This document shows positions 3,321 to 24,623 of a stretch of DNA of 24,623 bases, in pieces. The notes beneath the pieces were generated by a model. It was not told where the DNA came from, made no database searches, and saw only the letters and a program-made list of their open reading frames with translations. Every line of letters starts with the position of its first letter. Position 1 is the stretch's first letter. The stretch covers positions 1-24,623 of the IMG/VR virus record IMGVR_UViG_3300023184_000495; one strand, 5' to 3'. This DNA comes from a virus. Position numbers and translations under genes: made by a program.

Positions 3321-3846
3321 ACCTAATAATCCAGCATTGTGGTCTAGAGCGAAATCGGTTGCTAAATCAAAGTTTGATGTTTACCCTTCGGCCTATGCCA
3401 ATTTATTTGCCTCCAAATGGTACAAGAAACATGGTGGCACTTGGAAAAAATCAGATACAAATGAGAATTATATGTTTGATGATAAGTTCATAGAAGAAAT
3501 GCAAGTTTTATCTGGTATGATTGCCGAGGCAAAGAAACAAGAGCCTAAAAAGAAAAATGAATTTGAAGAATTTGCAGAAAAAAGAAAAGCTGGTGCTGAA
3601 AAAATCATCGAAAACGCCAGAGCTAAAGGCGGTATAGCAAAATTGACAATGTATCATTTTGAAGCAAAGATTCCTTTTTACAAGAATGCATCTGATGGTA
3701 AGTTTGATTTTAAAAAAGCAGAAAAAGAATATAAATCAATAATGTCTCAATCTATGAATTTAAATATGTCGCAAAAAAAATTCCAAGAACTTTTAGGACA
3801 AGCAGAAGCTATTGGTGAATTAATTTTAAAAAACAAAGGTAAATGA
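3307..3846 (+). CDS. Phage protein with N-terminal YPSAYAN module
   Basis: A 179-residue basic protein. Residues about 6-46 form a compact module (NNPALWSRAKSVAKSKF, then VYPSAYAN, then ASKWYKKHGGTW) that I recognise as a recurring motif in large-phage and giant-virus proteins, without a secure function. The rest is Lys/Glu-rich and probably helical, with a C-terminal segment MSQKKFQELLGQAEAIGELILKNK. The ATG at 3307 follows AAAGG and overlaps the previous gene by 14 nt, so the two are probably co-translated. The shared composition and the related Lys-rich modules suggest that this gene and the one before it act in the same process. Confidence 0.65.
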   Translation: MSKNKPNNPALWSRAKSVAKSKFDVYPSAYANLFASKWYKKHGGTWKKSDTNENYMFDDKFIEEMQVLSGMIAEAKKQEPKKKNEFEEFAEKRKAGAEKIIENARAKGGIAKLTMYHFEAKIPFYKNASDGKFDFKKAEKEYKSIMSQSMNLNMSQKKFQELLGQAEAIGELILKNKGK

Positions 3847-3901
3847 GTTTTACAAATAAAAACATCACGGTTACAATTGCTTCGATTAAGGAGTAATTTA
3901 T

Positions 3902-4765
3902 ATGCATGATGTTTTGACAAATGTACCAAATTTAAAAATAGAATGTTTAGACAAGGGATTCGTTCAATTAGTCGATTGTATGCCTAGATTGGCTCCAGAA
4001 GGCCAAACTACGGCAGATTATGCGATTGTACAGGCTGCTAGAGTATCCTATGGATCAGGCACTAAGACCGTAAATGAAGATAGGGGTTTGATTAGATATC
4101 TTCTCAGGCATTCCCACACAACTCCATATGAAATGATTGAATTCAAGTTTTGTTGCAAACTTCCAATATTTATCGCAAGACAGATGATTAGGCATAGATC
4201 GGCAAATGTGAACGAATACAGTGGAAGATATTCAGTAATCAAGGATGAATATTATGTTCCTAAATCTGAAGATATAAAAATACAATCTAAGGAAAACAAA
4301 CAAGGAGGTTCCGAAATAGCTCCTACTGATGTTGCTGATGATTTTAAAAAAAACATAGTTTATCTTGCAGATGAATCGTACGAGAAATATTTAAATTTTA
4401 TGGATTCTGGAATATCAAGGGAACAAGCTAGAATGTTGTTGCCTGTGAGTTATTATACGGAATGGTATTGGAAGATAGATTTACATAATCTTTTACATTT
4501 TTTGGCATTACGATGTGATTCCCATGCTCAATACGAGATCAGAGTATTTGCTGATGCTATTTTAAGTCTGATAAAACCTATAGTTCCTTTAGCTGTCGAG
4601 GCGTGGGAAGATTATCATGTTATGAGAGGTGCCATGAAATTTACTAGCTTGGAATTGGAGGCACTTAAAAAATCCATTCAAGAAAATAAGTTTACAGCAA
4701 TTGATTCTAACAATAAAAGAGAACAATCTGAATGGGAAGATAAAGCTAAGAAATTAGGTTTGTAA
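3902..4765 (+). CDS. thyX: Flavin-dependent thymidylate synthase
   Basis: This 287-residue protein is a ThyX-type thymidylate synthase, which methylates dUMP to dTMP using methylenetetrahydrofolate, NADPH and FAD. The signature RHRx7S is present as R97-H98-R99 and S107 within RHRSANVNEYSGRYS. Upstream, RYLLRHSHTTPYEMIEFKF (about residues 65-83) matches the conserved block before it, and ARMLLPVSYYTEWYW matches the downstream substrate block. The length is slightly above the usual 220-260 residues. AAGGAG lies just before the ATG. It fits the dNMP kinase as part of a phage dTTP supply set, and it lets the phage make thymidylate independently of a host ThyA. Its last 12 nt overlap the convergent hldE-like gene. 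Confidence 0.95.
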   Translation: MHDVLTNVPNLKIECLDKGFVQLVDCMPRLAPEGQTTADYAIVQAARVSYGSGTKTVNEDRGLIRYLLRHSHTTPYEMIEFKFCCKLPIFIARQMIRHRSANVNEYSGRYSVIKDEYYVPKSEDIKIQSKENKQGGSEIAPTDVADDFKKNIVYLADESYEKYLNFMDSGISREQARMLLPVSYYTEWYWKIDLHNLLHFLALRCDSHAQYEIRVFADAILSLIKPIVPLAVEAWEDYHVMRGAMKFTSLELEALKKSIQENKFTAIDSNNKREQSEWEDKAKKLGL

Positions 4766-6139
4766 TTTTTTGATTATATTGGTCGTAGATTCATTTTTAA
4801 TATAATTAGATATAATTGTTTCTGCGACAATATCAGATCCAACAATATCTGATTTTTTATAATCTCCTCCCTTTGCGATTACACATGGTTTTATTTTTTT
4901 AATAACCTCTAACGGTGTGTCTTCATCGAATGCTACAATGTAATCGACAAAGTTTAACTGAGATAGCATTGATATTCTTTTGTTCAAGTTATTTATTGGT
5001 CTGCTTTTGCCTTTTAGTTTTTTAATTGATTCGTCTGAGTTAATGGCGACAACTAATTTGTCTCCATGTGACTTGGCGAATTTAAGTGTTTGTATATGAC
5101 CTTCGTGTAATATATCAAAGCATCCATTTGTGAATACGAGTTTGTTTTTTCTTTGACTTAGTATTTCCGATGTTTCAATAAATTTATTGAAATCTTCAGA
5201 GTTATCTAAAAGTTCAAGTAATGTCAAAGGTTCGTTGTGTATGTTTTTCACATATGAAAGTCCGGCATTAAAAGCGATTTTAGCACAATCTTCTAGTGAA
5301 AAATTATGAGCATAAGCCAAGGCTAAAAATGCGGTAAAGCAATCTCCAGCACCAATCACAGAGCGAACATCTATTTTTTTAGGTTCTGGTATTACTTCAA
5401 AGTAATTATCAGTAGATTCAACTGCCCCATATATTTTATTTCCAGACTCAGTGATGATTACTGCTTTGCAATTAGTTTCTTTTAAAAAATAATTGATTTG
5501 ATCTTTTGGGTTGTTTTTTCCACTTATATTTTTAGCTTCGTTTGAGTTGGGTTTAAATATAGTGCAATTTTTCCATTTGTTTGCTGGTCCGTTTTTAGGA
5601 TCAACAATTGTTATATTGTTTTTAAGATGATTTTTATACCAAGGTGTTTTAAATATTCCCTTGTCGTAATCAGAAAAAACAACAATATCAGATTCTGGGA
5701 TTTGTAATTCGTTGATTGTTTGAGCGTACATTTTTTCGTTAAGATTGTAATTTTCTGTTTCGCAATCCCATCTAACTAAAGGAAAATCTTCATGATAAAA
5801 CCTTTTTTTGACTGGCATTTTAGCATCCCAGCAATTTACCGAATAATCTGTATTGATGTTTTTGCTTAAAATTTCATATCCATAAGAGTCGATTATGGAT
5901 ACCAATTTGCTTTGTACATTAACATATTGAAGTTGTCTGATTACATTGGACGCACCACCAGCAATTGTTTTTGATGGTTTTTCGCACTTTGATTTTAATA
6001 CTGGTATTGGAAATTCAGGGCTTATTCTGTTTGATGTAACTTGATAGTATTCATCTAACATTGAATCTCCGACAACGGTTACTTTTTTTTGTTTTAATAT
6101 TGTTTTACGATAAAGACTGTCAATTAATTTACTTTTCAT
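4754..6139 (-). CDS. hldE: HldE-like bifunctional heptose-7-phosphate kinase / heptose-1-phosphate adenylyltransferase
   Basis: A 461-residue two-domain protein close in length to bacterial HldE (about 475). The N-terminal PfkB/ribokinase domain shows VVGDSMLDEYY (about 22-32), RISPEFPIPV (38-47), the GG-N motif IAGGASNV (59-66) and the catalytic GAGDCF motif (263-268). The C-terminal nucleotidyltransferase domain shows FTNGCFDILHEGH (336-348, with the HxGH site), SRPINNLNKR and AKGGDY (422-427). HldE makes ADP-D-glycero-manno-heptose, the precursor of the lipopolysaccharide inner core in Gram-negative bacteria. All key motifs look intact. The start has a clear AGGAG. In a phage it may alter host surface sugar or supply ADP-heptose for another use; that part is inference. 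It could act on a related sugar. Confidence 0.9.
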   Translation of the reverse strand: MKSKLIDSLYRKTILKQKKVTVVGDSMLDEYYQVTSNRISPEFPIPVLKSKCEKPSKTIAGGASNVIRQLQYVNVQSKLVSIIDSYGYEILSKNINTDYSVNCWDAKMPVKKRFYHEDFPLVRWDCETENYNLNEKMYAQTINELQIPESDIVVFSDYDKGIFKTPWYKNHLKNNITIVDPKNGPANKWKNCTIFKPNSNEAKNISGKNNPKDQINYFLKETNCKAVIITESGNKIYGAVESTDNYFEVIPEPKKIDVRSVIGAGDCFTAFLALAYAHNFSLEDCAKIAFNAGLSYVKNIHNEPLTLLELLDNSEDFNKFIETSEILSQRKNKLVFTNGCFDILHEGHIQTLKFAKSHGDKLVVAINSDESIKKLKGKSRPINNLNKRISMLSQLNFVDYIVAFDEDTPLEVIKKIKPCVIAKGGDYKKSDIVGSDIVAETIISNYIKNESTTNIIKKLQT

Positions 6140-8256: not shown

Positions 8257-8312
8257 ATGTGATTTGGTTATTATGTAATATAGGTTTTCATATAAGTTCT
8301 AGGGGTTCTACT

Positions 8313-10388
8313 ATGATTGAATTCGAAAATATTTTTCAAGACTATGACCGTTCAAATTACAAGTCTCTTAATTCTGAAATGAGTTTTGCAGATTACTTGG
8401 CTGCTTGTTACGAGAAGCCAAAATTGATAAGAAATTCTTGGCAGATGATATACGATATGATCACCGAAAAAGGATCTTCGTCTATTGAAGAATATAGGAA
8501 GACATATACTCATTATAATTTTTTTGATGATCAAGAAATTCCAATTATTGGTTTAGCACCTTCTAAAGACGCTTTGGTTAAATTTATAAAAGGTGCTGCT
8601 GGTGGTTACGGCACAGAAAAAAGAATTCTTCTTCTTCACGGGCCAGTAGGCAGTTCAAAGTCTACAATTTGCCGTTTGATCAAAAGGGGAATGGAAAAAT
8701 TTTCAAGAACTGATTCTGGTGCTTGGTATTCATTTAAATGGGTCGATTTGCCTGTTGGTGCTGATGGCATTTATACAAGCAAGGAAGATGAAAGTCCTAT
8801 GCACGAGCAACCACTTAAGTTGTTGCCATTAGAGATTCGAAATAAGGTTGTAGCGGAACTTAATTCCATTCACAAAGAAAAAACTCCAGAAGACAAACAA
8901 TCAGAAATTTACAAACTTAAATGCGAAGGGGATTTAAACCCTCGTTGTAAATTTTTCATGAATAAACTTCTTAAGATGTACGATGGTGATCTTAAAAAAG
9001 TTTTAGAGAAGCACATTGTTGTAATTAGAAAAGTTTACGATGAATCAAATCGTTGCGGGATTGCAACATTTCAACCTAAAGATGAAAAGAACCAAGATTC
9101 AACTGAACTTACTGGCGACATTAATTTTAGCAAAATTAGTACTTTTGGCTCCGATTCAGATCCAAGATGTTTTAATTTTGACGGAGAATTTTGTATTGGA
9201 AATAGGGGATTGATAGAATTTATCGAAGCACTTAAATTAGAACAAGCGTTTCTTTACGACCTTCTTGGTGCCTCACAAGAACAAAGTATTAAACCAAAGA
9301 AATTCAGTCAAGTCAGTATCGATGAAGCGATTGTGGCACATACAAACAATCCAGAATACGAGAAGCTCAAGAGTAATCCTTATATGGAAGCTCTTAGAGA
9401 TCGTACTGTTAAAATAGATGTGCCATATACATTGAAGTGGTCGGAAGAAGTGAAGATTCTTGAGAAGGATTATTCTAGAGACAGACTGAACCAACATATT
9501 GCTCCACATACATTAGAAGTCGCAGCATTGTGGGCGATCCTTACAAGATTGCACGATGATAAAGATGGTAAATTAAGTTTAGTAGAAAAAGCAGAATTGT
9601 ATGATGGAAAATTACTTTCGGGATGGACCGAAGATGGGGTTAAAGAATTAAAAGACAAATATCCAGAAGAAGGCATGTCTGGTGGCGTTAGCGTGAGATA
9701 TGTGCAAGATAAAATCAGTAATTGTTTGGCTAACAATCATGAATATGTAAATATGTTTATGGTGCTTAATGAGCTTAAAGAAGGATTGACTAATTCGTCT
9801 TTGTTTACCAACAAAGAACAGGTCGGAAGGTATATGACATGCATCGACCTTGTTGTAAAGAAACTAACTGAAATCCTTAAGAATGAAGTACAAAGAGCTT
9901 TGGTCGGAGATGAAGACGCAATTATTAGACTTTGTACAAATTACATCGATAATGTAATGGCTTATATTAATAAGTCTAAAATGAAAGATCCAATTACTGG
10001 ACAAGATCGTAAGCCAGACGAAAGATTGATGCGTTCAATTGAAGAGAAGATTAGTATTCCAGAACAAGGTAGTGATGATTTTAGAAGGCAGATCGCTGCT
10101 TTTATAGGAAGTCTGGCCAACGATGGTAAGAAATTTAAATATGATTCTAATCCGCAATTGAAGAAAGCCCTTGAAGCAAAACTTTTCGAAGATGTAAAAG
10201 ATACAATTAAATTGTCAACTTTAAATGTATCCGGAACCAATGTGGTAGATAAAACTAGTCAAGAAAAAATCGATGCCATTAAAACTAGATTGATTAAAAG
10301 TTATGGCTACAACGAGAGAAGTGCTACTGATGTTCTTGACTTCGTAGGTTCTATATTTGCTAGAGGCGAATTGGCAGATGAAGATTAA
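8313..10388 (+). CDS. prkA: PrkA/YeaG family AAA+ serine kinase-like protein
   Basis: The chosen start is ATG 8313, with AGGGG upstream; the frame is open 18 codons farther but that part looks non-coding. The 691-residue product is somewhat longer than bacterial PrkA/YeaG (about 640). It has the family N-terminal segment (MSFADYLAACYEKPKLIRNSWQ in pieces about 23-44) and a Walker A loop GPVGSSKST (110-118), the PrkA-type variant with Ser in place of Gly. The C-terminal third, with GQDRKPDERLMRSIEEKI, fits the PrkA C-terminal domain. PrkA homologues are described as serine protein kinases and, more recently, as AAA+ proteins linked to stress and stationary phase. It heads a prkA-yeaH-spoVR cluster with 30-nt and 9-nt gaps, matching the bacterial association. 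Confidence 0.93.
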   Translation: MIEFENIFQDYDRSNYKSLNSEMSFADYLAACYEKPKLIRNSWQMIYDMITEKGSSSIEEYRKTYTHYNFFDDQEIPIIGLAPSKDALVKFIKGAAGGYGTEKRILLLHGPVGSSKSTICRLIKRGMEKFSRTDSGAWYSFKWVDLPVGADGIYTSKEDESPMHEQPLKLLPLEIRNKVVAELNSIHKEKTPEDKQSEIYKLKCEGDLNPRCKFFMNKLLKMYDGDLKKVLEKHIVVIRKVYDESNRCGIATFQPKDEKNQDSTELTGDINFSKISTFGSDSDPRCFNFDGEFCIGNRGLIEFIEALKLEQAFLYDLLGASQEQSIKPKKFSQVSIDEAIVAHTNNPEYEKLKSNPYMEALRDRTVKIDVPYTLKWSEEVKILEKDYSRDRLNQHIAPHTLEVAALWAILTRLHDDKDGKLSLVEKAELYDGKLLSGWTEDGVKELKDKYPEEGMSGGVSVRYVQDKISNCLANNHEYVNMFMVLNELKEGLTNSSLFTNKEQVGRYMTCIDLVVKKLTEILKNEVQRALVGDEDAIIRLCTNYIDNVMAYINKSKMKDPITGQDRKPDERLMRSIEEKISIPEQGSDDFRRQIAAFIGSLANDGKKFKYDSNPQLKKALEAKLFEDVKDTIKLSTLNVSGTNVVDKTSQEKIDAIKTRLIKSYGYNERSATDVLDFVGSIFARGELADED

Positions 10389-10418
10389 AAAACTTTAGAT
10401 TAAGAAAGTAGGTGCCAC

Positions 10419-11627
10419 TTGCCTAGAAGAATAGAAGAAGATCACGCTCAGTTTAGAAACATTGTTTCTGGAAGAATTAGAAAAGCTCTGAAGAAGTTCA
10501 TCAAGAGCGGTAAGATATTTCGCAATCGAGGAAAAAAAGGCAAGATAGCCATTTCTATTCCAAAGATTGATATTCCGCATATTGTTCATGGTGAATCCGA
10601 TGAAGGTGCTGGAAGAGGCCAAGGACAAGATGGAGATGTGATTGGCAAGGACAACAATAAAGGCCAAGGTAATCAGGCTGGACAGGATGAGGCCGAAGGT
10701 CAGATGATAAATCTTGATCTTGAACAGGTCTTGAGGTTCATGCAGGATGAATTAGAACTTCCAAATCTTAAGAGAAAAACCAACGAAACATTTGAAGAAG
10801 TTATTATAAAATATAATAACATTTCTTTGATGGGGCCAGAATCGCTTAGGCATAATCGTAGGACATTTCTAGAAGCACTTAAGAGACAGTCGATAGATGG
10901 AACTATAAATGATTTATATGAAGTTCCCGGCTGTGAAATGCCGATGAAGTTAATCAAACCAATTCCAAAAGATAAAAGATACAGACAATACAAGGAAATA
11001 AAAATTCCTTCAAGTAATGCGTTGATTATTTACGCAAGAGATGGCTCTGGTTCCATGGATGCCTATAAATGCGATATAGTCAGTGATATGGCGTGGTGGA
11101 TCGATGTTTGGATTAAAAGGTTTTATGATCGTGTTGATCGATTGTTTGTCTGGCATGATAGCGTAGCACAAGAAGTCGATGAGGATAAGTTTTACAAATA
11201 TCGTTTTGGTGGCGGAACTACTTGTTCTTCTGCTTTGAAGTTTATATCGAAACAATTCGAAAACAGATATCCGCCTGAAAAATGGAATATATATGTTTTT
11301 TACTTTACTGATGGCGAAAATTGGGGCGATGACAATAAGGTTTTTATTCAAACTTTAAAAGATGAATTTGGACCAGATAAGGTTAATTTATTTGGTGTCA
11401 CTCAAATTCTTTCTTATACATATGAAAATTCAGTTAAACAAATGGTCGATAACGCTTTAAGTGAAAATGTTTTAAGTAGAGACAATGTCATTACCACAAG
11501 CATAAGTGGAGATGAAGGAGAAGGTAAGAATTTTTATAGTTCTGAAATTAGCGAACAACGAAGAAACGAACAAATTTTAGAAGCAATTAAAACTTTAATG
11601 GGCAATAAGAAAACATTAATATTTTAA
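10419..11627 (+). CDS. yeaH: YeaH/YhbH family (DUF444) vWA-domain protein
   Basis: This 402-residue protein starts at TTG 10419, five bases after AGGTG; no closer ATG fits. The N terminus (RRIEEDHAQFRNIVSGRIRK in pieces) and the Gly/Gln/Asp-rich linker at about 60-95 are typical of YeaH/YhbH. The C-terminal half is a von Willebrand A-like domain with a metal-binding DxSxS motif (D208-G-S-G-S212) and a later FTDGENWGDD (about 297-306). Bacterial YeaH is about 430 residues and is partnered with the PrkA kinase YeaG. Its place between prkA and spoVR, close on both sides, supports the same partnership here. The biochemical role of the family is not settled. Confidence 0.93.
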   Translation: MPRRIEEDHAQFRNIVSGRIRKALKKFIKSGKIFRNRGKKGKIAISIPKIDIPHIVHGESDEGAGRGQGQDGDVIGKDNNKGQGNQAGQDEAEGQMINLDLEQVLRFMQDELELPNLKRKTNETFEEVIIKYNNISLMGPESLRHNRRTFLEALKRQSIDGTINDLYEVPGCEMPMKLIKPIPKDKRYRQYKEIKIPSSNALIIYARDGSGSMDAYKCDIVSDMAWWIDVWIKRFYDRVDRLFVWHDSVAQEVDEDKFYKYRFGGGTTCSSALKFISKQFENRYPPEKWNIYVFYFTDGENWGDDNKVFIQTLKDEFGPDKVNLFGVTQILSYTYENSVKQMVDNALSENVLSRDNVITTSISGDEGEGKNFYSSEISEQRRNEQILEAIKTLMGNKKTLIF

Positions 11628-11636
11628 AGGATAAAA

Positions 11637-13253
11637 ATGCAAAATAAGTTTTTTTATGGCGCACCAGTTCTTTTGAGTAACAACACTGTTCCGGGCGTTC
11701 AACTTTCTGCTGAATTAAAAAAATATGTTCCGATGATTTTAAAGTCATGTCAAGATTGGGGTTTGGATTTTTATCCAACCATAGTTCAAATGTTGACATA
11801 CGATGAGATATCAGAAATAGCAGCTTATAGCGGATTTCCAGTTAGATTTCCTCACTGGTCTTTTGGTATGGAATACGAAGAACTTCAGCGAGGATACGAA
11901 TTCGGGGCGCATCGCATATATGAAATGGTAATTAATTCAAAACCATGTGTTATTTATTGTCTTAATAGCAATACACTTGGAGATAATTTAACTGTTGTAG
12001 CTCATGCGACTGGTCATAATGATTTTTTCAAAAATAACATTCACTTTTCCGCTACTAATACTGATATGTTGAATATCATGGCGAATCATGGAAGTAGAAT
12101 TAGAAAGTATATGAGCAGATGGGGCAATGAAAAAGTTACTACCTTTATAGATCATGTGATGAGAATAGAGACGCTTGTAGATGGAGCAAATGCGTGGAAT
12201 CAAAAAGTAATAAAAGATAAAAACTTTAAAGATAAAAGAAAATATAGAAATCCTAAAAGATTGCATGTAGAAAACGAAAGATTATACATGGATTCTTTTA
12301 TAAACACTAAAGAATTTAAGGAAAAAGAAAACTCTAAAATAAATAAAAAATATACAGCAGAAGAATTAGATATTTTTATAAAACCAACAAGAGATATTTT
12401 TGGATTCTTAAAAGAGAACGCCCCTTTAAAGCCTTGGCAACAAGATATAATGTCTATGTTATACGAAGAGGCTTTATATTTCTTCCCTCAAAGACACACC
12501 AAGGTAATGAATGAAGGCTTTGCTTCTACGGTAGATCATGTGATCATGGCAGAACAAGGGAATATTGGCTTGGGGCAAGAATCACATGATGCTGGTATAT
12601 TTGATTATGCTGTTCACAAAATGGGCGTTCTTGGCGGTAAGTATAGCACGAATCCTTATAAACTTGGCTATAATTTATTTGCCGATATTCGTGAGAGATA
12701 CGACAAAGGAAGGTTCGGCACTGAATGGGAACAATGCACGGACATGCACAAAAGAGAAAACTGGAATACAAATACAAATTTAGGCAAAGAAAAGATTTTT
12801 GAAGTAAGAAAACATTATGACGATTTTACATTTTTAAATGAATTCTTTACTGAGGATTTTTGTAGAAAACAAGAATATTTTGAATGGAAAAAACAACCTA
12901 ACGGAGAATTCGTAATCGCATCAAGAGATTACGAAAAAATTAAAAAGAATTTACTTCGAAAATATGTCAATGGCGGTCTGCCAGACATAAGGTTGGAAGA
13001 AAATAATTTTAGAGGAAAAGGTTATTTGTTTTTACAGCATCATTCCACAGGACAAAGGATTTACGATCCTTATGTTCGTGATGTGTTGACATCAATTAGA
13101 GCCATATGGGGTAACGATGTGTATTTTGCAACTAAATCTCCAGATGGAACTGAGCATGTCTATGATTGTCATGGACCTGACTCGACAAAAGATGTTTCGG
13201 TTAAAACTAAACAAGGATTCATAGGAGCAGACAGAAATGACAGAAACGAATGA
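11637..13253 (+). CDS. spoVR: SpoVR/YcgB family protein
   Basis: A 538-residue protein of the SpoVR family, slightly longer than E. coli YcgB (about 510). Diagnostic segments are YPTIVQMLTYDEISEIAAY (about 41-59), FPHWSFGMEYEEL (about 72-84), AHATGHNDFFKNN (about 122-134) and NEGFASTVDHVIMAEQGN (about 289-306, where the bacterial family has EGWA). The C-terminal TGQRIYDPYVRDVLTSI is also family-like. SpoVR is needed for spore cortex formation in Bacillus; in other bacteria it co-occurs with PrkA and YeaH in stress operons, and its reaction is unknown. AAAGGATAAAA precedes the ATG, 9 nt after yeaH. Its last 17 nt overlap the glycosyltransferase-like gene, so the cluster may extend into that gene. 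Confidence 0.94.
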   Translation: MQNKFFYGAPVLLSNNTVPGVQLSAELKKYVPMILKSCQDWGLDFYPTIVQMLTYDEISEIAAYSGFPVRFPHWSFGMEYEELQRGYEFGAHRIYEMVINSKPCVIYCLNSNTLGDNLTVVAHATGHNDFFKNNIHFSATNTDMLNIMANHGSRIRKYMSRWGNEKVTTFIDHVMRIETLVDGANAWNQKVIKDKNFKDKRKYRNPKRLHVENERLYMDSFINTKEFKEKENSKINKKYTAEELDIFIKPTRDIFGFLKENAPLKPWQQDIMSMLYEEALYFFPQRHTKVMNEGFASTVDHVIMAEQGNIGLGQESHDAGIFDYAVHKMGVLGGKYSTNPYKLGYNLFADIRERYDKGRFGTEWEQCTDMHKRENWNTNTNLGKEKIFEVRKHYDDFTFLNEFFTEDFCRKQEYFEWKKQPNGEFVIASRDYEKIKKNLLRKYVNGGLPDIRLEENNFRGKGYLFLQHHSTGQRIYDPYVRDVLTSIRAIWGNDVYFATKSPDGTEHVYDCHGPDSTKDVSVKTKQGFIGADRNDRNE

Positions 13254-14632: not shown

Positions 14633-14728
14633 ATGGAAAACTTTTCCAAGAAAGGAGACATCGGAATGAAGATGGAAGTAACTGGTTTTGAACACTTACA
14701 TCTTCATTCCGATGTTTTAGCCCAGTAG
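14633..14728 (+). CDS. dnaE: DnaE N-terminal piece: first PHP motif, ends at an in-frame stop
   Basis: A 31-codon frame ending in VTGFEHLHLHSDVLAQ-stop. HLHLHSD is the first metal-binding motif of the PHP domain that opens bacterial DnaE, normally followed by (E/D)YSLLDG. Here the reading stops at TAG 14726-28, but 23 nt later another frame continues with EFSLLDGFGT, exactly the missing part. Removing 14711-14750 (40 nt) would give HLHSEFSLLDG. Two starts are in frame: ATG 14633 after GAGGT, and ATG 14666 after AAAGGAG; the second gives MKMEVTGFEHLH, more like family length. This piece alone cannot be functional. It is probably joined to the next piece by recoding, or is the broken start of a gene that re-initiates downstream. 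Confidence 0.75.
   Translation: MENFSKKGDIGMKMEVTGFEHLHLHSDVLAQ
14655..14718 (+). promoter_or_regulatory. 20-bp hairpin enclosing the dnaE start codon
   Basis: ACATCGGAATGAAGATG (14658-14674) is the exact reverse complement of CATCTTCATTCCGATGT (14699-14715), a 17-bp perfect stem. Three more pairs (G-U, A-U, G-U) extend it to 14655 and 14718, with a 24-nt loop. The stem holds the ATG at 14666 and half of its Shine-Dalgarno sequence, so folding should block initiation there. The right arm encodes the conserved HLHS codons and reaches into the 40-nt insertion. Confidence 0.75.
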
Positions 14729-14747
14729 ATCGGAAAGTCTGCTGGGC
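14720..14747 (+). promoter_or_regulatory. Hairpin holding the stop codon: candidate translational-bypass signal
   Basis: GCCCAGTAGA (14720-14729) pairs with TCTGCTGGGC (14738-14747) in a 10-bp stem with one G-U pair and an 8-nt loop TCGGAAAG. The in-frame TAG is inside the 5' arm. The codon just before the stem is TTA (14717-14719). The same codon TTA occurs at 14760-14762 in the downstream frame, with GGAG ending 8 nt before it. Matching take-off and landing codons, a stop-containing hairpin at take-off and an SD-like element before landing are the features of T4 gene 60 bypassing. Confidence 0.6.
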
Positions 14748-14762
14748 GGAGAATTCAGCTTA

Positions 14763-16064
14763 TTGGACGGATTCGGAACCGTTGAAGAATATTCCGCTAG
14801 AGCCATTCAAATAAATCAAAACTTTTTGACTGTAAGCGATCATGGAATGTTGGGTGCAGTTCCAAGGCAAATAAAGGCTTGCGAAATAATTTGTGACAAA
14901 TACGGAAAAGACAAATTGTCTCCTATATTTGCCGCAGAGCTTTATATGAATCCTTTGCAGCCAGATTCAAAGAATTCAGAAGAACTATCCAAATATACAT
15001 CAGAATTATCTCCTGATGAAATGAATATATTTAAAGCAAGTCCGCATTTACTTGCCATTGCTTATAATGAGACAGGATATAAAAATCTTGTAAATTTAAC
15101 CTCTTGGGGATTTACAAGAGGTTTTTATCGTAAGCCAAGAGTTAATTACGAACAATTATTGCTTCACAAAGAAGGACTGTATTTCACTTCGTGTTGTTAC
15201 AACAGTGAAATAGGCAGGGCATTTGATGCTGGTGGCGAAGAATCAGCATTTCAAATGATTGAAAAATATATTTCTATGTTTGGTAAAGATAATTATTATC
15301 TTGAAATAATGTTGTTAGATTTCAAGAAGCAAAAGCCATACAATCAATTTATCGTTAAAGCAAAAGAAAAATATAATTTAAAAATTATATTGAGTCAGGA
15401 TTGCCATTATTGTTTGCAAGAAGATAGCCACTATCAAAGATTAATGTTGATGGTACAGACGAATAGAACAATTCAAGAAATTCAAAACGCACTCAAAGAA
15501 GATGCCATGAGAGACTTCTTTGAGTTGCAAGATGCCAATTTATGGATGAAGTCCGAGGAAGAACTAAATGATAAATGGTTAAGTGATTATAGCGATGTTG
15601 TTCCTTATGAAATATTTTGTGAAGCAAAAAGTACTACTGTTGAAATATGCAGAAAAGCAAAAGGCGTGAAACTTGATAGAAGTTTAAAATTACCAAGTTT
15701 TCCTGATTGTGATGAAAAATTAAAAGAATTAGTCGTATATGGTTATCGCAAGAAAAAACTACCAGATACAAATGAATATAAAAGCAGAATCAAAGAAGAA
15801 CTTGGTTTGATAACAAGAAAAGGATTTAGCACATATTTTCTTATTCAGAAGATGATGACTGATGAAGCTAGAAAGTGGTGTAAAGAATTTTTAGGCGGAG
15901 ATGGGTCGCAAGCAGTTGGTCCGGGTAGGGGTTCTTGTTGTGGCTCATTGATTTGTTATTGTTTGGGCATTACAGATGTTGATCCAATAAAAGAAGATCT
16001 GCTTTTTTCTAGATTCATGAGTGAAGCTAGAGGTGGCAGATCTATAAAATTAGAAATGGAATGA
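14763..16064 (+). CDS. dnaE: DNA polymerase III alpha, N-terminal fragment (PHP plus start of palm)
   Basis: This frame of 433 codons from TTG 14763 continues the PHP domain: LDGFGTVEEYSARA, LTVSDHGML, PIFAAELYMN and ILSQDCHYC are the successive PHP motifs. It then enters the polymerase palm: RIKEELGLITRKGFSTYFLI and the nucleotide-binding GPGRGSCCGSLICYCLGITDVDP near the end. It stops after LLFSRFMSEARGG plus eight extra residues, just before the PDIDVDY catalytic motif, which is on the next fragment. The coding frame is open upstream to GGC 14745. Landing of bypassing ribosomes at TTA 14760, or initiation at TTG with GGAG upstream, are both possible. The protein must pair with the second fragment to make an active site. 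Confidence 0.9.
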   Translation: MDGFGTVEEYSARAIQINQNFLTVSDHGMLGAVPRQIKACEIICDKYGKDKLSPIFAAELYMNPLQPDSKNSEELSKYTSELSPDEMNIFKASPHLLAIAYNETGYKNLVNLTSWGFTRGFYRKPRVNYEQLLLHKEGLYFTSCCYNSEIGRAFDAGGEESAFQMIEKYISMFGKDNYYLEIMLLDFKKQKPYNQFIVKAKEKYNLKIILSQDCHYCLQEDSHYQRLMLMVQTNRTIQEIQNALKEDAMRDFFELQDANLWMKSEEELNDKWLSDYSDVVPYEIFCEAKSTTVEICRKAKGVKLDRSLKLPSFPDCDEKLKELVVYGYRKKKLPDTNEYKSRIKEELGLITRKGFSTYFLIQKMMTDEARKWCKEFLGGDGSQAVGPGRGSCCGSLICYCLGITDVDPIKEDLLFSRFMSEARGGRSIKLEME

Positions 16065-16639: not shown

Positions 16640-16980
16640 GGGGGCGAGATAGTTTCGATTGTTGTGGAATTTCAATTGTTGCATGTAGTGGTTGATCGAA
16701 AGGCCACTTAAAACTTCGATCACAATATAGGTGCAGAACCTGTTTTTTCTATGGCTGCTTAATTAAGCTACCTCAAATTTAGAAGATTTTGACTATTCTA
16801 AATTTGCATTAGTCAAATAGTTTTGGTGTATGTTGTGGACATCAAGGCAAAATTCAACAAATCGTTTGCGAAAATTTTTGGTTGTTATAAATTCGTAAAT
16901 TAAACTTTAATAATAACACAAACATGTAGACGCACTTGAGATGAGATAGCAAGACACCGGGGCGGTTCCGGTCGCCTCCA
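16640..16980 (+). ncRNA. ssrA: Transfer-messenger RNA (tmRNA)
   Basis: A complete one-piece tmRNA of 341 nt. GGGGGCG (16640-16646) pairs fully with CGCCTCC (16973-16979), and a G3-U70 wobble marks it for alanyl-tRNA synthetase; the discriminator is A16980 and CCA is not encoded. The 5' side continues AGATAGTTTCGATTG, like the tmRNA D-loop region. Pseudoknot 1 is formed by AGTGG/CCACT (16687-16691 with 16704-16708) and GATCGAA/TTCGATC (16694-16700 with 16715-16721). Eleven nt later comes the resume codon GCA, with UAG at -5 to -3 as in E. coli. The 3' end has the 17-nt T arm with stem ACCGG/CCGGT, but the 7-nt loop is GGCGGTT instead of TTCRANN. T-rich sequence follows and may end transcription. 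tmRNA rescues stalled ribosomes. Confidence 0.95.
16733..16762 (+). other. tmRNA tag reading frame (AEPVFSMAA-stop)
   Basis: From resume codon GCA 16733 the frame reads A-E-P-V-F-S-M-A-A and stops at TAA 16760-16762. The final Ala-Ala is the usual protease-recognition end; Met replaces the common Leu or Val before it. The region after the stop (TTAAGCTACC) fits helix 5 of tmRNA. With the alanine carried by the tmRNA itself, the added tag would be ten residues. Confidence 0.9.
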
Positions 16981-17034
16981 CTTTTTTCATTTTTTAGACT
17001 TCCACAAAAAGTTAATTTTTATTATTGTTTAAAC

Positions 17035-18705
17035 ATGGCTATAAACAGAGAAAGCATTGTATCTTATTTAAAAAATAAGATTGAAGACGAAAGCATCCTT
17101 TATCAAAAAAGGTTGAATTGGGAGATTGCGGAAATAGACGCAAAAGAAAAATGGGATTATTTTATAAATCTTTATTTGTACAAAAAGAAATTCGATACAA
17201 ATAAAAACAATTTATTGGTTCCATATCTTTTAGGGATAGTTATTGATTTTGATATCAACAAGAATCCAGAATGTTACTTTGGTGAGTTTCCAGATATCGA
17301 TGTCGATTACATTGGTACGGTTAGAGATTATTTGAAAAACGAATGGGCAAAAAAACAGTTTGGTGAAAATTATGTTTGTAGTATTGGGAACTATACAACA
17401 TTTGGAATCAAGTCTGCACTTATCGATATGGCTAGGGTTCACGGTATACCAAGAGAAGACATTCTTGTTTTAACAAAAGATCTTGATGCAAAAGACGAAG
17501 AAGGTAAAGCCTTGACATGGGAAGCTGCCATGAGGCTGTATCCTGCGTTGAAGAAATTTTGCGATGAACATCCAGATGTCGCCAAAGCATCTCAAAAACT
17601 AATCAATCGCAATAGAGGAATGGGTGTACATGCTGGTGGCTTAATTATAAGTTCCATTCCGTTGACCGATTTGGTTCCTTTGGTTAAAAGAAAGGAAAGT
17701 CCACAAGCATCTGCTTGGGTGGAAGGTTTACATGGTCAAGACTTACAGCCAGTAGGATTAGTTAAATTCGATCTATTAGTTGTATCGAATCTATCGCAGA
17801 TAGCTCAATGTTGTGAATTGGTCAAGCATAGGCATGGTTTAACTTCCATATGTGCTTTGGAATCTCAGCCAGACTGGACAGATGTAGATAAATGGAGAAA
17901 TGACGAGAAATCATTGGCTATGGCTAATGATGGAGATTTAAAGTGTGTATTTCAATTTGATAGCGAAGGAATTAGAAAGTTAGCAAAAGATGGAGGGGTG
18001 ACATCCTTTGATGATATGGTTGCTTATTCTTCTATTTATAGGCCCGGTCCTTTGAACATGAAAATGCACGAGAGATATATTGAAAGGAAAAGAGGCAGAG
18101 AACAATATAGCTTGCACCCAATTTTAGATTCCATATTAGGCAAAACATATGGAGTTATGATTTACCAAGAACAAGTTATGCAAATTTTGAATAAAGTAGG
18201 TGGGATTCCATTAAAAGATTGTGAGGCCGTAAGAAAGGCTATTTCTAAGAAAAAAGTAGAGGCATTTTTAAAATATAAAGAAATGTTTGTTAAGAACGGA
18301 CAAGTAAGTTTAAATTGTTCAGAAAAAGAAATAAACAGCTTGTTTGATCAAATAATTTCCTTTTCAGAATATGGCTTTAACAGATGTGTAACGAAGGACA
18401 ACCTTGTTTACGATCATGTTCGTAAAAGTTATGTGACGATTGGTGAGTTATTTGAGGAGTTTCAGTCCGAAGGTGGCACACAAGTTATCCTTGATTCTTT
18501 TGTAGACAACAAGATAATTAAGGATAATCTAGTTGATGTGTTTGAGACAGGAGAAAAAGAAGTTTATGAAATCGAATTGGATAATGGAATTACTTTGCGT
18601 ACAACGCTAGATCATAAATTTATGTGTTCTAATGGTTTGTATCATACTATTCAAGAAATTTTTGATAATGATTTAGAAATATTATCGGATTCATACTCTA
18701 TGTAA
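17035..18705 (+). CDS. dnaE: DNA polymerase III alpha, middle fragment with N-terminal half of a split intein
   Basis: The 556-residue product carries the catalytic core of DnaE. PDIDVDY (86-92) supplies the first two active-site Asp, and VKFDLL (243-248, D246) supplies the third. The GVHAGG block (197-202), VFQFDSEG, YRPGPL and YGVMIYQEQVMQI are also present. Residues 1-85 resemble a degenerate second copy of the palm segment at the end of the N-terminal fragment (YQKRLNWEIAEID, DYFINL, LLVPYLLGI), but without GPGRGS. The polymerase part ends at FSEYGFNR (ending at base 18384); from C451 to the end it is an N-intein. ATG 17035 has no clear ribosome site and lies 54 nt after the tmRNA. Its product must be trans-spliced to the fragment starting at 19842. 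Confidence 0.93.
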   Translation: MAINRESIVSYLKNKIEDESILYQKRLNWEIAEIDAKEKWDYFINLYLYKKKFDTNKNNLLVPYLLGIVIDFDINKNPECYFGEFPDIDVDYIGTVRDYLKNEWAKKQFGENYVCSIGNYTTFGIKSALIDMARVHGIPREDILVLTKDLDAKDEEGKALTWEAAMRLYPALKKFCDEHPDVAKASQKLINRNRGMGVHAGGLIISSIPLTDLVPLVKRKESPQASAWVEGLHGQDLQPVGLVKFDLLVVSNLSQIAQCCELVKHRHGLTSICALESQPDWTDVDKWRNDEKSLAMANDGDLKCVFQFDSEGIRKLAKDGGVTSFDDMVAYSSIYRPGPLNMKMHERYIERKRGREQYSLHPILDSILGKTYGVMIYQEQVMQILNKVGGIPLKDCEAVRKAISKKKVEAFLKYKEMFVKNGQVSLNCSEKEINSLFDQIISFSEYGFNRCVTKDNLVYDHVRKSYVTIGELFEEFQSEGGTQVILDSFVDNKIIKDNLVDVFETGEKEVYEIELDNGITLRTTLDHKFMCSNGLYHTIQEIFDNDLEILSDSYSM

Positions 18706-18712
18706 GAGTATG
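18692..18712 (+). promoter_or_regulatory. Stop-start hairpin between N-intein and endonuclease gene
   Basis: CATACTC (18692-18698) and GAGTATG (18706-18712) form a perfect 7-bp stem with loop TATGTAA. The loop holds the stop codon of the N-intein frame (TAA 18703-18705) and the 3' arm holds the ATG of the endonuclease (18710). A ribosome terminating on the first gene would open it, so endonuclease translation may depend on upstream translation. Confidence 0.5.
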
Positions 18713-19810
18713 AAACATCATGAATACTTGCAATACAAACATTTAAGGAAACTTTATTTTAAAGGAAAATATTATAAAGAAATTTCTGTAGAATTAAAGA
18801 CTACCGTTGACTATATTAGCCAGAAAGTCAAAGAACATAATCTCAATGATAAGCGAGAGCGTTGGTACGAGTATTTAGTGACACATGCATATGGAACGGA
18901 AAAACAATTGTGTGAAGTTGCCACTTTGGTTGGAATCAGTGTTTCTATTTTGAATAGAGTCAAGCGTAAGCTGGGAATTAAAACTAAGCGATTTACTATC
19001 CACAACAAGAGGATAACCAGCGATATTAAAGATCAAATGGTTGATTTTTATAAATCTGGAATGACTGGCACAGAAGTCGCCAAAAAATTTGGCTACAAAA
19101 CATCTAAGACAGTCGAAGATGTATTAAAAGAAAAAAATGTAGAAGCAAGAGAGGCGTGTTTTCGTCGCAAATATGACTACGATTTTTTTAAATTAGTTAA
19201 TTCTCATGACAAAGCGTACATTCTTGGTTTACTCTATACAGATGGTTATATTTATAAAGACTACGCTGGTTTTGCGATTCAGTTAACTGAGGGTGATCGA
19301 TATTTGCTCGAAAGGATTGCTGCTAAAATCGGTCTTGGTGCTTCAGTAATTCACATCAACTGTGATGGCAAGAGAAAAAAAATGCCTAATGCTAAGGACA
19401 TGGCAAGGCTTGGCGTTTATTCCAAAGTATTGGCCAAACAAGTAAAAAAACTTGGTGTCGTAAAAAGAAAAACTTATCATCTATCTGTTTCGTCTAATCT
19501 TATACCAAAGAAGTATCGTTACAGTTTACTTCGTGGAATAATAGATGGTGATGGATCTGTTGGTGTAGACAAAAGAGGTGTTATTTGGCTGAAAGTGTGC
19601 ATGAAGTCTGAGCAATTTGCAAAAGATATTTGTAGTTTGTTTCCTGATGACTTTTCGTTTAATAAATTTCAGAATAATTATGGTGACATGTATTACATTT
19701 CTATCCTTGGTGGTCGAAGCAACACTATTCGAATGTTGCGAAAAATATACAAGCATAAAGGCGATCTTTACTTACAGCGAAAATATGATAAAATTTATTC
19801 TTATCTATAA
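18710..19810 (+). CDS. LAGLIDADG homing endonuclease within split intein
   Basis: A 366-residue protein with three helix-turn-helix-like segments in its N-terminal half (about 14-42, 65-88 and 106-141, for example MTGTEVAKKFGYKTSKTVEDVL) and a two-motif LAGLIDADG domain: YILGLLYTDGYI (about 170-181) and LLRGIIDGDGSV (about 273-284). The acidic residues of each motif (Asp in YTDGY and in DGDGS) are present, so it is probably active. Such enzymes cut an intein-less allele and spread the element by recombination. The start is ATG 18710, four bases after the N-intein stop. It is a free-standing protein, not fused to the intein, which sets this element apart from most inteins. The HTH part likely binds the target or its own promoter. 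Confidence 0.9.
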   Translation: MKHHEYLQYKHLRKLYFKGKYYKEISVELKTTVDYISQKVKEHNLNDKRERWYEYLVTHAYGTEKQLCEVATLVGISVSILNRVKRKLGIKTKRFTIHNKRITSDIKDQMVDFYKSGMTGTEVAKKFGYKTSKTVEDVLKEKNVEAREACFRRKYDYDFFKLVNSHDKAYILGLLYTDGYIYKDYAGFAIQLTEGDRYLLERIAAKIGLGASVIHINCDGKRKKMPNAKDMARLGVYSKVLAKQVKKLGVVKRKTYHLSVSSNLIPKKYRYSLLRGIIDGDGSVGVDKRGVIWLKVCMKSEQFAKDICSLFPDDFSFNKFQNNYGDMYYISILGGRSNTIRMLRKIYKHKGDLYLQRKYDKIYSYL

Positions 19811-19841
19811 ATAAATTTATATTTCTTAGAAGGCGATAACG

Positions 19842-21275
19842 ATGAAGATATGCAAGATTAAATCGATAAAACATTTGGGAATGCAAAAAACTTACAATTT
19901 GACGATGGCATCTGAACAGCACAATTATGCAATTTGTGGAACTACTCCAAGCAAATTTGTCATCAGTCGTAATTCCCATGCCGTTGCGTACATGTACATA
20001 AGTGCTAGGCTTCTTTATTTGAAATCTCATTATCCATTGGAGTTTTACGCTTCTATTTTGAAATGCGAAAATGTATCTGATAAGATTAAGGACTATAAGA
20101 TAGAGGCAAAAAATCACAACATTGAAATAAGAACTTTGGATTTAAACAATTCTAAAGAAGGCTTTGGTTTGGTTGACGATAATTTGTATTTTGGATTTTC
20201 TAATGTAAAGGGCATAGGCACAGAGCCAGCGAAAAGGATAGTTGAGGGTCAGCCATACTCTGGATTTGAAGATTTTTTAAAGAGATTTGGCACAGACGCT
20301 TCGGTTCTTAAGTGTCTTATTGGTTTGCGTTGTTTCAAGGAAGCTGATCCTGTAGTTCTTTGGAAGTACCTTGAGTTTTTCAAAGAATATAAAAAGAAAA
20401 TTGTCGATAAAGAAAATAGATTTAAAAACAATTTTGATAAATCCGAAGAACTATATGGTTTTTTTACATCTAATTCTGAAACAATTAAATTTTCCGATTT
20501 AACTGGTGACGATCCTTTTTCTGATGTTTATTGGCAACAATATGATACCGAAATCGAGATCGAAATAGAAAAAGAAACAGAATGCGATGCTGATGAAGGA
20601 GAATATTCAAAAATCGTTATAAAAAATATAAAAGTAGATGAGTCTGGTTTGATTATAGAAGAAGAAAGATTGAAATATTTTAAAAAAATAAAAGTAAAGA
20701 AAAAACTTAATCGTCTTAACGAACTAAAGAAACTATGGTCTAAAAGACAACAGAATCTTGAAAAATATAAAAGTGTTTTTAATATTCCTAGTTTTGAATC
20801 TTTTAATCCCGAAAAACAAACAATCGATAAAAACATACAAAGTGAGCTTGAAGATTTATTTGGATGTGAGAAAAAGTATTATGGATTTTCTTGGACAAGT
20901 AAATTGTCTAATAGTTCTATGAGTAAAACATTTTCTTTAAGAAAAGAAAATAAAATTGGCAATGGATATGTGGAATTTGAAATTGTAGATGTTAAAAAAT
21001 ATAAAACTAAAGCTGGTGCTGATTATTTGCAAATAAAAGGTCAAGACTTCGATGGTATAGAAGAAAGAATAAATGTTTGGTCGGAAGATGTGGAGAGATG
21101 GCATCAAGAATTGAAAAAAGGTAACTTAATTAGAATGAAAGTAACTCCGCCATCTAAAGGGTTTAATACTTTCAGCATAGAATCCAACAGATCGAAAAAT
21201 TATGTTAAAAAGAACATGATTTGGACTTCGAAAGAAGAAGACCCTAGAGTTATAATTTTGAAAGGAATAGACTAA
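19842..21275 (+). CDS. dnaE: DNA polymerase III alpha, C-terminal fragment preceded by C-intein
   Basis: The 477-residue product starts with the 44-residue C-intein (to N44) and continues S45-HAVAYMYISARLLYLKSHYPLEFYASIL, the DnaE block after GFN(K/R). Next come LYFGFSNVKGIG (helix-hairpin-helix region, about 107-118) and FEDFLKRFG. A long charged segment (about 190-300, Lys/Glu-rich) has no bacterial counterpart that I recognise. At the end is an OB-fold-like domain (VEFEIVDVKKYKTKAGADYLQIKG, then NLIRMKVTPP). The usual C-terminal clamp-binding and tau-binding regions are not apparent, so clamp contact may differ. AGAAGG lies upstream of ATG 19842. After trans-splicing this completes the polymerase. 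The stop overlaps the next ATG (TAATG). Confidence 0.92.
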   Translation: MKICKIKSIKHLGMQKTYNLTMASEQHNYAICGTTPSKFVISRNSHAVAYMYISARLLYLKSHYPLEFYASILKCENVSDKIKDYKIEAKNHNIEIRTLDLNNSKEGFGLVDDNLYFGFSNVKGIGTEPAKRIVEGQPYSGFEDFLKRFGTDASVLKCLIGLRCFKEADPVVLWKYLEFFKEYKKKIVDKENRFKNNFDKSEELYGFFTSNSETIKFSDLTGDDPFSDVYWQQYDTEIEIEIEKETECDADEGEYSKIVIKNIKVDESGLIIEEERLKYFKKIKVKKKLNRLNELKKLWSKRQQNLEKYKSVFNIPSFESFNPEKQTIDKNIQSELEDLFGCEKKYYGFSWTSKLSNSSMSKTFSLRKENKIGNGYVEFEIVDVKKYKTKAGADYLQIKGQDFDGIEERINVWSEDVERWHQELKKGNLIRMKVTPPSKGFNTFSIESNRSKNYVKKNMIWTSKEEDPRVIILKGID

Positions 21276-22468: not shown

Positions 22469-23052
22469 TGGACGATAATAATTCGATTAATAGTTTCAAA
22501 AATGATATTGATAAATATTCGGCTATTTGGGAAAAAGCATTGAAAGACGGAATTTTCGATTCTGCTGAAGTCAACACTAATAAAAACGATGGCAATCCAG
22601 TCGATGAACCAAATGATTTTTTTGGTTTGCATTGCGATGTTGTTGATATTCCTTTGAATGAATCTGAAGGTAGAAATTGGAATGCTATTTATCGTGCTTC
22701 TGTAAATGAAGTTGTAAATGAAGAAAAATCTTCGGTAAAAAAAAAATTAGGTAATGTAACCAAATCTGTAGCTAATGCTTTTAATCCAGTACAAGCACAA
22801 ACTGTCGGAAAAGATGCAACAAGTGATGTCGATGATAATTTCGGTATCGTTGGAGATGATTTGCAAAAATTATCTGATATGAAGAAGAAATTACACGATT
22901 TGAAATCAAAAATTAATTCCGAAGAAGCAAGAGCCGATAAAAGATTTCCAGCTATGGAAAAAAAATTGGCAGATATGGAAAAAGAAATAGACGCTTTAAG
23001 TGACTCTTTGTATGGAAACAGAACCGTAGAAAAGAAAAGAAAAATTAAATAA
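22468..23052 (+). CDS. Probable structural or scaffold-like coiled-coil protein
   Basis: A 194-residue, highly charged protein. The N terminus (MDDNNSINSFKNDIDKYSAIWEKALKDG) is followed by a polar middle. The C-terminal 65 residues (LQKLSDMKKKLHDLKSKIN in pieces, then FPAMEKKLADMEKEIDALSDSLYG) have heptad-like repeats and probably form a coiled coil. No enzymatic motif is seen. It is coupled to the small membrane protein by TAATG. Composition and the coiled coil would suit a scaffold, tail or virion-assembly protein; this is inference. Its last 8 nt overlap the convergent HindIII-like gene. Confidence 0.6.
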   Translation: MDDNNSINSFKNDIDKYSAIWEKALKDGIFDSAEVNTNKNDGNPVDEPNDFFGLHCDVVDIPLNESEGRNWNAIYRASVNEVVNEEKSSVKKKLGNVTKSVANAFNPVQAQTVGKDATSDVDDNFGIVGDDLQKLSDMKKKLHDLKSKINSEEARADKRFPAMEKKLADMEKEIDALSDSLYGNRTVEKKRKIK

Positions 23053-23733
23053 GTTCTTTTTTGGCTCTTAATAAATTTCTTTTAATCCTTCCCAATGCAT
23101 TAATGTCATTATCAATAATTTTTATTGCTAAATTACTTTGTTCGATAAAGTAATTTATTTCTTCGTTTTTATATTTTTTAAGAGTTTCTTTTGATTTTCC
23201 GTAGACATCACAAATTGATTTGTCTAATTCATCCCAATAAAAATTATTACATTTTCTAATCTTTAAATAATTGTTTATTTCCCATATGTGCTTCAAATCT
23301 TCTTGACCAGTATATTCATTAACTAAAAAACAAAATCTTCCGTATGTCAAAAGCGTTACATTGCATTCTTTTGCATGATTATAAATTTGACTGTTTTTAG
23401 AACTTGAAAATGTATGCCATGGAGCAATTATAATTGCATGCTTATGTTCCATTCTCCATTTATCAACAGAATAAATTTTAAAATCTTTTGGATTATAAGG
23501 GTTTCTTCTGCATCGTGATGCCTTGCTATCAATTACCGCTGAATGATCGTTGTTCCAAATTTTTGCGTCTGCACTGTTTGACCTTGTTGTGAATATCTCT
23601 TTTTCGTAGCCTAAAACTTCAAATCCATTAGATATTCAATGTCACACTCTTTTGCAAATTTTTTTTCTTCAGAAGAAGATACTCTGATTTTTTCTGGAAT
23701 AATGCTTTTTTCAATTATTTGTTTTTTAAGCAT
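23045..23733 (-). pseudogene. HindIII-like restriction endonuclease with a frameshift
   Basis: On the minus strand, ATG 23733 opens 40 codons (MLKKQIIEKSIIPEKIRVSS, then EEKKFAKECDIEYL) ending at TAG 23611. The reading continues in another frame from about 23630 as NGFEVLGYEKEIF, SNSADAKIW, AVIDSKASRCRR, NPKDFKIYSVDKWR, then from Met 23452 to the stop at 23045. The joined protein resembles HindIII as I recall it: the spacing from FxK-x2-DI to RxNxxD has the same length, and catalytic D, D and K appear as SAD and IDSK. One base is missing near CTAATGG. The 135-residue frame from 23452 alone lacks the active site. Either an assembly error, a true inactivation or a programmed frameshift explains it. 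No methyltransferase gene is in the window. Confidence 0.65.
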
Positions 23734-24403: not shown

Positions 24404-24438
24404 ATTATAAAAAACTTATATAAGAAATAAAAATAATC

Positions 24439-24623
24439 ATGTTTATAGGCGCAACAAATTTTAATTCTGGAAAAAATAAAGGACCAACAGGTGCTGGCTT
24501 AACAGGATTAACTGGTGCTACTGGATTAACTGGTGCTACTGGATTAACTGGTGCTACTGGATTAACTGGTGCTACTGGATTAACTGGTGCTACTGGATTA
24601 ACTGGTGCTACAGGATTAACTGG
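24439..24623 (+). CDS. Collagen-like fibre protein, cut by window edge
   Basis: The frame starts at ATG 24439 ([20 protein letters not shown]) and runs to the window edge. From about residue 14 it consists of G-x-y triplets, mainly GLT and GAT, as in collagen-like phage tail-fibre or fibril proteins. Such triplets form trimeric helices that stiffen fibres. There is no strong ribosome site, so it may be coupled to the previous gene. The C-terminal domain that would tell the function lies outside the window. Confidence 0.75.
24505..24623 (+). repeat. 18-bp tandem repeat encoding G-L-T-G-A-T
   Basis: The unit GGATTAACTGGTGCTACT recurs head to tail at 24505, 24523, 24541, 24559, 24577 and 24595. 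The sixth copy ends in ACA, and a partial seventh copy runs to the window end. Each unit encodes two collagen-like triplets. The near-identity at DNA level suggests recent expansion, so copy number may vary between isolates or be collapsed in assembly. Confidence 0.95.

Follow-up and report, generated by a model that had tools for sequence, protein, structure and literature searches.

How can a continuous DNA polymerase III alpha subunit be obtained from a dnaE gene that is interrupted by the two halves of an intein, each on its own gene, with a third gene in the gap between them? The question is raised by a 24,623-base IMG/VR virus record (IMGVR_UViG_3300023184_000495; hereafter the window, meaning the whole stretch of DNA analysed), which was compared with relatives, mostly viral contigs, designated here by L-numbers. 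As judged from its sequence, the window dnaE is a fractured gene, that is, a split intein with a free-standing homing endonuclease gene (HEG) between its halves, which would very probably act by splicing in trans and by homing.

The open reading frame (ORF) at 17035-18705 encodes the middle part (M-part) of a DnaE-type polymerase III alpha subunit and ends in an N-intein (IntN; CVTKDN...SDSYSM, 18385-18702), closed by a TAA stop codon at 18703-18705. The C-terminal part (C-part) starts anew with an ATG at 19842, in a second ORF (19842-21275) that opens with a C-intein (IntC; MKICKIK...VISRN) and continues into SHAVAY. As is typical of a split intein, each half belongs to its own gene, and both a stop and a start codon intervene. 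A first-pass annotation had placed such halves at 18385-19973; these limits proved exact, and the TIGR01445 model (intein_Nterm) matched residues 451-531 with 37.4 bits (cut-off 24.5; E 3.7e-9). The score of PF14890 (30.5) stayed under its cut-off of 35.8, as expected of half an intein. Excision had been proposed to restore EYGFNR-SHAVAY, and this is exact DnaE sequence in comparison with intein-less relatives: L004 (EYGFNA/SHATAY), L005 (EYGFNL/SHSVAY) and L007 (YGFNL/SHATSY; the slash marks the site) are uninterrupted across it, and the deduced junction is therefore exact. Alignment with L123, L214 and Npu DnaE revealed a complete set of splicing residues, namely C1, TLDH in block B, the block F His in QHNY, N44 and S+1. 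In addition, the halves are of opposite net charge (IntN -14, IntC +6). The Npu DnaE halves, with charges of -11 and +3, have the same pattern, which is that of natural split inteins.

The gap is occupied by an intact HEG that is not fused to the intein (18710-19810), as is characteristic of fractured genes; the same holds for L123 (HEG at 8506-9660) and for L223, where the HEG lies on the opposite strand. Its 366-aa product carries N-terminal helix-turn-helix (HTH) repeats and two LAGLIDADG motifs. This architecture, noticed initially in the gap, was borne out by a match over the cut-off to PF14528 (LAGLIDADG_3, E 9.8e-9) and by assignment to phrog_4645 'endonuclease' (5e-37). A search of the HEG profile against solved structures returned weak, irrelevant matches only, and the fold was therefore settled with AlphaFold and Foldseek: the model (pLDDT 83) matched the TliVMA homing endonuclease (HEN), PI-SceI, I-SceI and I-DmoI with E values down to 5e-7, the best structural matches being the homing domain of the TliVMA intein and PI-SceI. 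The acidic LAGLIDADG residues D178 and D281 were invariant in all six aligned HEGs. Searching viral contigs with the single HEG sequence gave no match; a two-sequence profile (window and L123) did find relatives.

In the proposed mechanism, the precursor composed of the M-part and IntN (negative) would associate with that composed of IntC and the C-part (positive), and both would fold into one HINT domain. Trans-splicing would proceed from a thioester at Cys1 through transfer to Ser+1 and cyclisation of Asn44 to an O-N acyl shift, and the product would be a continuous EYGFNR-SHAVAY chain with the junction peptide EYGFNRSHAVAY. The endonuclease may cut intein-less dnaE genes of co-infecting phages at the conserved GFNK-SH codons, and repair would copy IntN, HEG and IntC together as a single cassette. 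Because splicing would work in trans, the HEG need not be fused to the intein or in frame with it.

The insertion had been reported as close to that of the cyanobacterial split DnaE intein, and it lies four residues downstream of it; the further idea that this point was peculiar to the window was not sustained. A survey of viral contigs included 145 distinct dnaE genes with the site readable by the main script; L213, L214, L217, L223 and L045 were inspected individually. Empty sites predominated, and the position turned out to be a recurrent phage site in public contigs, where fractured and overprinted inteins occur besides contiguous, mini- and HNH-bearing ones. Fractured inteins with a LAGLIDADG HEG were found in the window, in L123 (same order and strand) and in L223, and one with a Vsr/EDxHD-like HEG in L180. 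Contiguous inteins devoid of an HEG were present in L214, L002/L003, L134, L159 and L045 (MT835601, a gut phage whose mini-intein belongs to another intein lineage), a contiguous intein with an in-frame HNH in L176, and contiguous inteins harbouring an HEG in the +1 frame in L149, L154, L093 and L217. In L213, an intein of the window's family lies two codons further on. Two other candidates were rejected: a 216-nt 'gap' in L173 was an alignment artefact, and the HNH-bearing DnaE intein of Gordonia phage Wojtek (L043, 5333-6130) is nearby, at another codon. The C-terminal junction of the Wojtek intein, HHN/NIAH, implies an unusual Asn at +1.

Contiguous and fractured states of one intein family both exist at the same codon. 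L123 carries N-intein, HEG and C-intein at the codon used in the window, with identities of 51% over 86 aa between the N-inteins and 40% over 365 aa between the HEGs. In L214, an intein of this family occupies the same codon in one frame, with no endonuclease (GFNL/CLDG...VISRN/SHSACY), and its segment ...LNILYFQEN-MKKCKIKSVK... aligns exactly at the stop, HEG and new ATG of the window and L123. The intein structure was predicted on this contiguous sister, and the model folds like Npu DnaE, its best match (TM 0.78-0.83, E 1e-8; phmmer 2.4e-10). Searches at the DNA and intein levels gave no match to the family in named phages, and it is therefore known so far from metagenomic contigs only; a search with the N-intein profile retrieved distant archaeal inteins only. 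The first-pass description of the locus as an intermediate in the birth of split inteins is supported insofar as the same family occurs contiguous and HEG-less at this codon. We infer a fracture from a contiguous ancestor. Because trees within the five-member intein family do not resolve, the order could also have been the reverse, with re-fusion of a fractured intein after loss of the HEG.

The contiguous inteins of L149, L154, L093 and L217 carry overprinted HEGs that form a coherent family of their own, L093 and L217 showing 26-32% identity (E below 1e-16), and Shine-Dalgarno-like HEG starts were found in L149, L154 and L217. The intein frame is free of stop codons over 315-350 codons in all four cases; synonymous shuffling of the HEG produced a mean of 18-21 stops in that frame, which was open in 0 of 20,000 shuffles. 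Conservation between L149 and L154 reaches 51% in the HEG frame vs 35% in the intein frame. The stop-free intein frame and the better-conserved HEG frame indicate that the two frames are maintained for different products, one for the endonuclease and the other, held open, for the intein. In the mini-inteins of L002, L134 and L159, +1-frame stretches resembling the HEG remain, as judged by eye. An out-of-frame HEG may have eased the way to a fractured gene, if evolution ran in that direction. The ShiLan domain of phage methylases is similar in that an HNH endonuclease is inserted out of frame and the host frame stays open (PMC11855218); it differs in the family of the endonuclease and in having no splicing domain, whereas the insertion in the four dnaE genes is a genuine intein.

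The window DnaE is placed inside a clade of large phages (support 100/100), and the inteins of the window, L123, L223, L213 and L214 form a clade with the same support (100/100). Identities between the window and L123 are 48% for the intein and 36% for DnaE, vs 27% and 70%, respectively, between the window and its DnaE neighbour L002. In approximately unbiased (AU) tests, a tree with the window intein forced beside those of its DnaE neighbours was rejected (p 3.6e-6), as was a DnaE tree forced to follow the intein (p 1e-38). The intein has moved horizontally between distant phages, vertical descent being rejected, and the 40% identity between the HEGs of the window and L123 fits a cassette moving as one unit.

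The relatives retrieved with the window/L123 HEG profile lie again in dnaE. In L208/L209 the carrier is a group I intron at FNKAH/SQAYA, with an Rfam Intron_gpI match under the gathering score (E 1.2e-4), conserved core motifs and an exact in-frame splice product, and the intein of L213 occupies exactly the position of the L208 intron. In L211 the HEG has a broken frame, and the similar intron around it, inserted a few nucleotides 5' of the intein site, was recognised by core motifs only (Rfam 0.96) and has uncertain boundaries. As the best indirect evidence on the target, these positions suggest that the HEG lineage recognises the GFNKSH-coding stretch; they do not prove that the window enzyme cuts there. 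The rival explanation that survives best, though unlikely, accepts trans-splicing and regards the HEG as a passenger with another target, uncoupled from any movement of the intein. In L004, a related minus-strand HEG is found between dnaE pieces, at a distance from the GFN/SH site, and that of L223 is on the opposite strand, as such a passenger might; on the contrary, the HEG relatives from unrelated dnaE genes (window, L123, L223, L208 and L211) are within a few codons of GFN/SH, in inteins and introns, as expected of a target, and the window and L123 share HEG and intein jointly.

Less probable still, the intein halves may have become splice-dead after HEG invasion, DnaE being then assembled non-covalently from pieces with useless intein tails. 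A dead intein would decay, whereas the window, L123 and L223 have kept both halves and all splice-active residues even though their DnaEs are only 30-36% identical; moreover, the break falls in the polymerase core beside GFNKSH, which would have to accommodate tails of 106 and 44 aa. Two observations make this alternative conceivable: the clade already has DnaE as two genes with no intein at the break between N-part and M-part, and a phage ribonucleotide reductase gene split by an HEG with its function retained is a precedent (Friedrich 2007, as cited in PMC10448857).

A group I RNA intron with a LAGLIDADG gene and coincidental intein-like ends is highly improbable, despite the related HEGs in group I introns beside this dnaE site (L208, L211): Rfam gave no group I or II signal at 18200-20200 of the window, the core-motif pattern is absent, and homology with the contiguous intein at the same codon extends over intein blocks A, B, F and G. 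Equally improbable is that errors of sequencing or assembly have broken up a contiguous intein whose LAGLIDADG domain was in frame, since, although the window is a single metagenomic contig, the HEG has its own ATG start and HTH domains, the C-part gene has a Shine-Dalgarno sequence, the order is the same in the independent contig L123, L123 and L223 have homologous parts and share the place of the fracture, and the other two forward frames across the HEG contain 21 and 41 stops, which makes a read-through product impossible.

Some observations weigh against a functional fractured gene of the kind proposed. The Shine-Dalgarno sequence of the HEG is weak, and the penultimate intein residue is Arg instead of His (Arg is also found in the contiguous L214, and Lys in L213). 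The HEG profile had no copy in cellular genomes, and its phage relatives are few and mostly distant. The contig is a 24.6-kb fragment, and a further intact dnaE may lie outside it. Finally, the trees of the intein family are compatible with the split having originated once or repeatedly. For the wider scenario we see an even chance: that GFN/SH of phage dnaE is a homing hotspot displaying the full birth cycle of split inteins (empty site, mini-intein, contiguous intein with a +1-frame overprinted endonuclease, fractured intein), that one LAGLIDADG lineage alternates there between group I introns and fractured inteins, and that the three-gene cassette jumps as a unit between distant phages.

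Fractured genes were reportedly described by Dassa and colleagues in 2009, with split inteins in phage gp41 helicase, NrdA/NrdJ and IMPDH genes and free-standing HEGs of the EDxHD/Vsr-like type, which characterises these first cases and is no part of the definition. They share with the window intein halves on adjacent genes with the HEG between, an occurrence in metagenomic phage genes and a split typically at the HEG insertion position, and a split intein with a free-standing endonuclease is an established kind of fractured gene. The window differs in its host gene, a phage dnaE, and in its HTH-LAGLIDADG endonuclease, the EDxHD type being found at the same site in L180; besides, L214 offers a homologue for comparison that is contiguous, lacks an HEG and occupies the same codon. 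The Npu/Ssp DnaE inteins have in common with the window the polymerase III alpha host, the split point, an acidic IntN and a basic IntC. On the other hand, they are inserted at Y/CFNKSH and not at GFNR/SH, with Cys instead of Ser at +1, and they are cellular with halves far apart, whereas those of the window belong to a phage, are adjacent and flank an HEG. Phage LAGLIDADG/HTH endonucleases (phrog_4645; intron HEGs of Staphylococcus phages) show the same domain architecture and motifs, but reside in introns and not between intein halves. Apparently new are the phage dnaE host, the LAGLIDADG partner and the allelic series with contiguous inteins overprinted in the +1 frame, of which no description was found in the literature searched, a search that did not cover intein catalogues. 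The coordinates are collected in Table 1.

Table 1. Features of the dnaE locus in the window, and contiguous dnaE inteins with an overprinted HEG in relatives
Feature	Position	Strand	Evidence
DnaE N-part (PHP and start of alpha domain), own gene	14633..16064	+	PF02811 5e-26, PF07733 2e-24
DnaE M-part (N-extein), PDIDVD motif to EYGFNR; NTPase/palm and finger domains	17035..18384	+	PF17657 5e-40, PF07733 1e-24, PRK05673 7e-82; aligned with intein-less relatives
IntN, 106 aa, Cys1, block B TLDH, plus stop codon	18385..18705	+	TIGR01445 37.4 bits
HEG, HTH repeats and two LAGLIDADG motifs (LGLLYTDGY, LRGIIDGDG)	18710..19810	+	PF14528, phrog_4645 5e-37, AlphaFold/Foldseek
Shine-Dalgarno-like AGAAGG for C-part gene	19828..19833	+	sequence
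IntC, 44 aa, block F HNY, VISRN end	19842..19973	+	homology to C-inteins of L123, L214, L213, L223
DnaE C-part (C-extein, SHAVAY..., HHH domain)	19974..21275	+	PF14579 7.7e-12, PRK07135 4.7e-24
Contiguous dnaE inteins with +1-frame HEG	L149 5711-7000, L154 5717-7000, L093 5112-6350, L217 5875-7212		

The window DnaE is encoded in three genes, the second break lying upstream, between 16064 and 17035. This break is devoid of any intein and falls directly before the PDIDVD motif, and about 80 additional residues begin the M-part. The two-gene arrangement of N-part and M-part is common to most of the clade, L046, L164, L167 and L169 being contiguous. A transfer-messenger RNA (tmRNA) gene was found between both parts (16640-16983; Rfam RF00023, 100 bits; missed by ARAGORN), and a phage tmRNA gene is likewise present in relatives L002 and L046. 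Within the PHP domain, a 40-nt insert (14714-14753; region 14633-14790) disrupts the frame of the N-part; L004, L007 and L046 lack it. The RNA of this region is predicted to form two back-to-back hairpins, of about 20 bp and then 11 bp (GCCCAGUAGAU/GUCUGCUGGGC), with -63 kcal/mol and a z of -7.6 (0 of 200 shuffles), and UUA is found twice, immediately 5' of the second hairpin and where the frame resumes (HSDV-L-LDGFG). By analogy, the insert looks like a ribosome bypass element of the T4 gene 60 type; a frameshift, a pseudogene or an assembly error could also account for it. No other copy of the hairpin was found in viral contigs.

Further inteins were observed at other sites and in other genes of the relatives. 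L214 has a second fractured intein at another dnaE site (2918-5200; FANFG/CLAKDT ... VVHN/SHAAGV), with a zinc-finger endonuclease between the halves, and L217 a contiguous mini-intein at that second site (FANFG/CLAKDT). A split intein with a short gap and no endonuclease interrupts a phage dUTPase gene in L216 (8755-9670), and fractured inteins with nuclease genes between their halves are found in phage ribonucleotide reductase-like genes of L218 and L219. Elsewhere in the window, genes for PrkA kinase, DUF444 (YeaH/YhbH) and SpoVR, a bacterial stress and sporulation trio, are adjacent at 8259-13253, and part of this region has DNA-level similarity in L046 and L007. The protein encoded at 23045-23452 (minus strand) matches the C-terminal half of the HindIII restriction endonuclease family, and a coding sequence of collagen-like GLTGAT repeats (24405-24623) runs past the end of the window.

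Few cases have so far informed the debate on the origin of split inteins; in the present set of traceable phages, all states are found at a single codon position, and the matched contiguous and fractured pair (L214 vs L123 and the window) makes the transition directly testable. The overprinted forms suggest a route that begins with the out-of-frame entry of an HEG; selection would at first keep the intein frame open, and stops would accumulate later, splicing then taking place in trans. The intron and intein locations of one HEG lineage suggest that an endonuclease may switch its carrier and keep its target. From a practical point of view, the locus and its relatives are a source of new split inteins from phage DnaE for trans-splicing tools, some of them 42-49% mutually identical.

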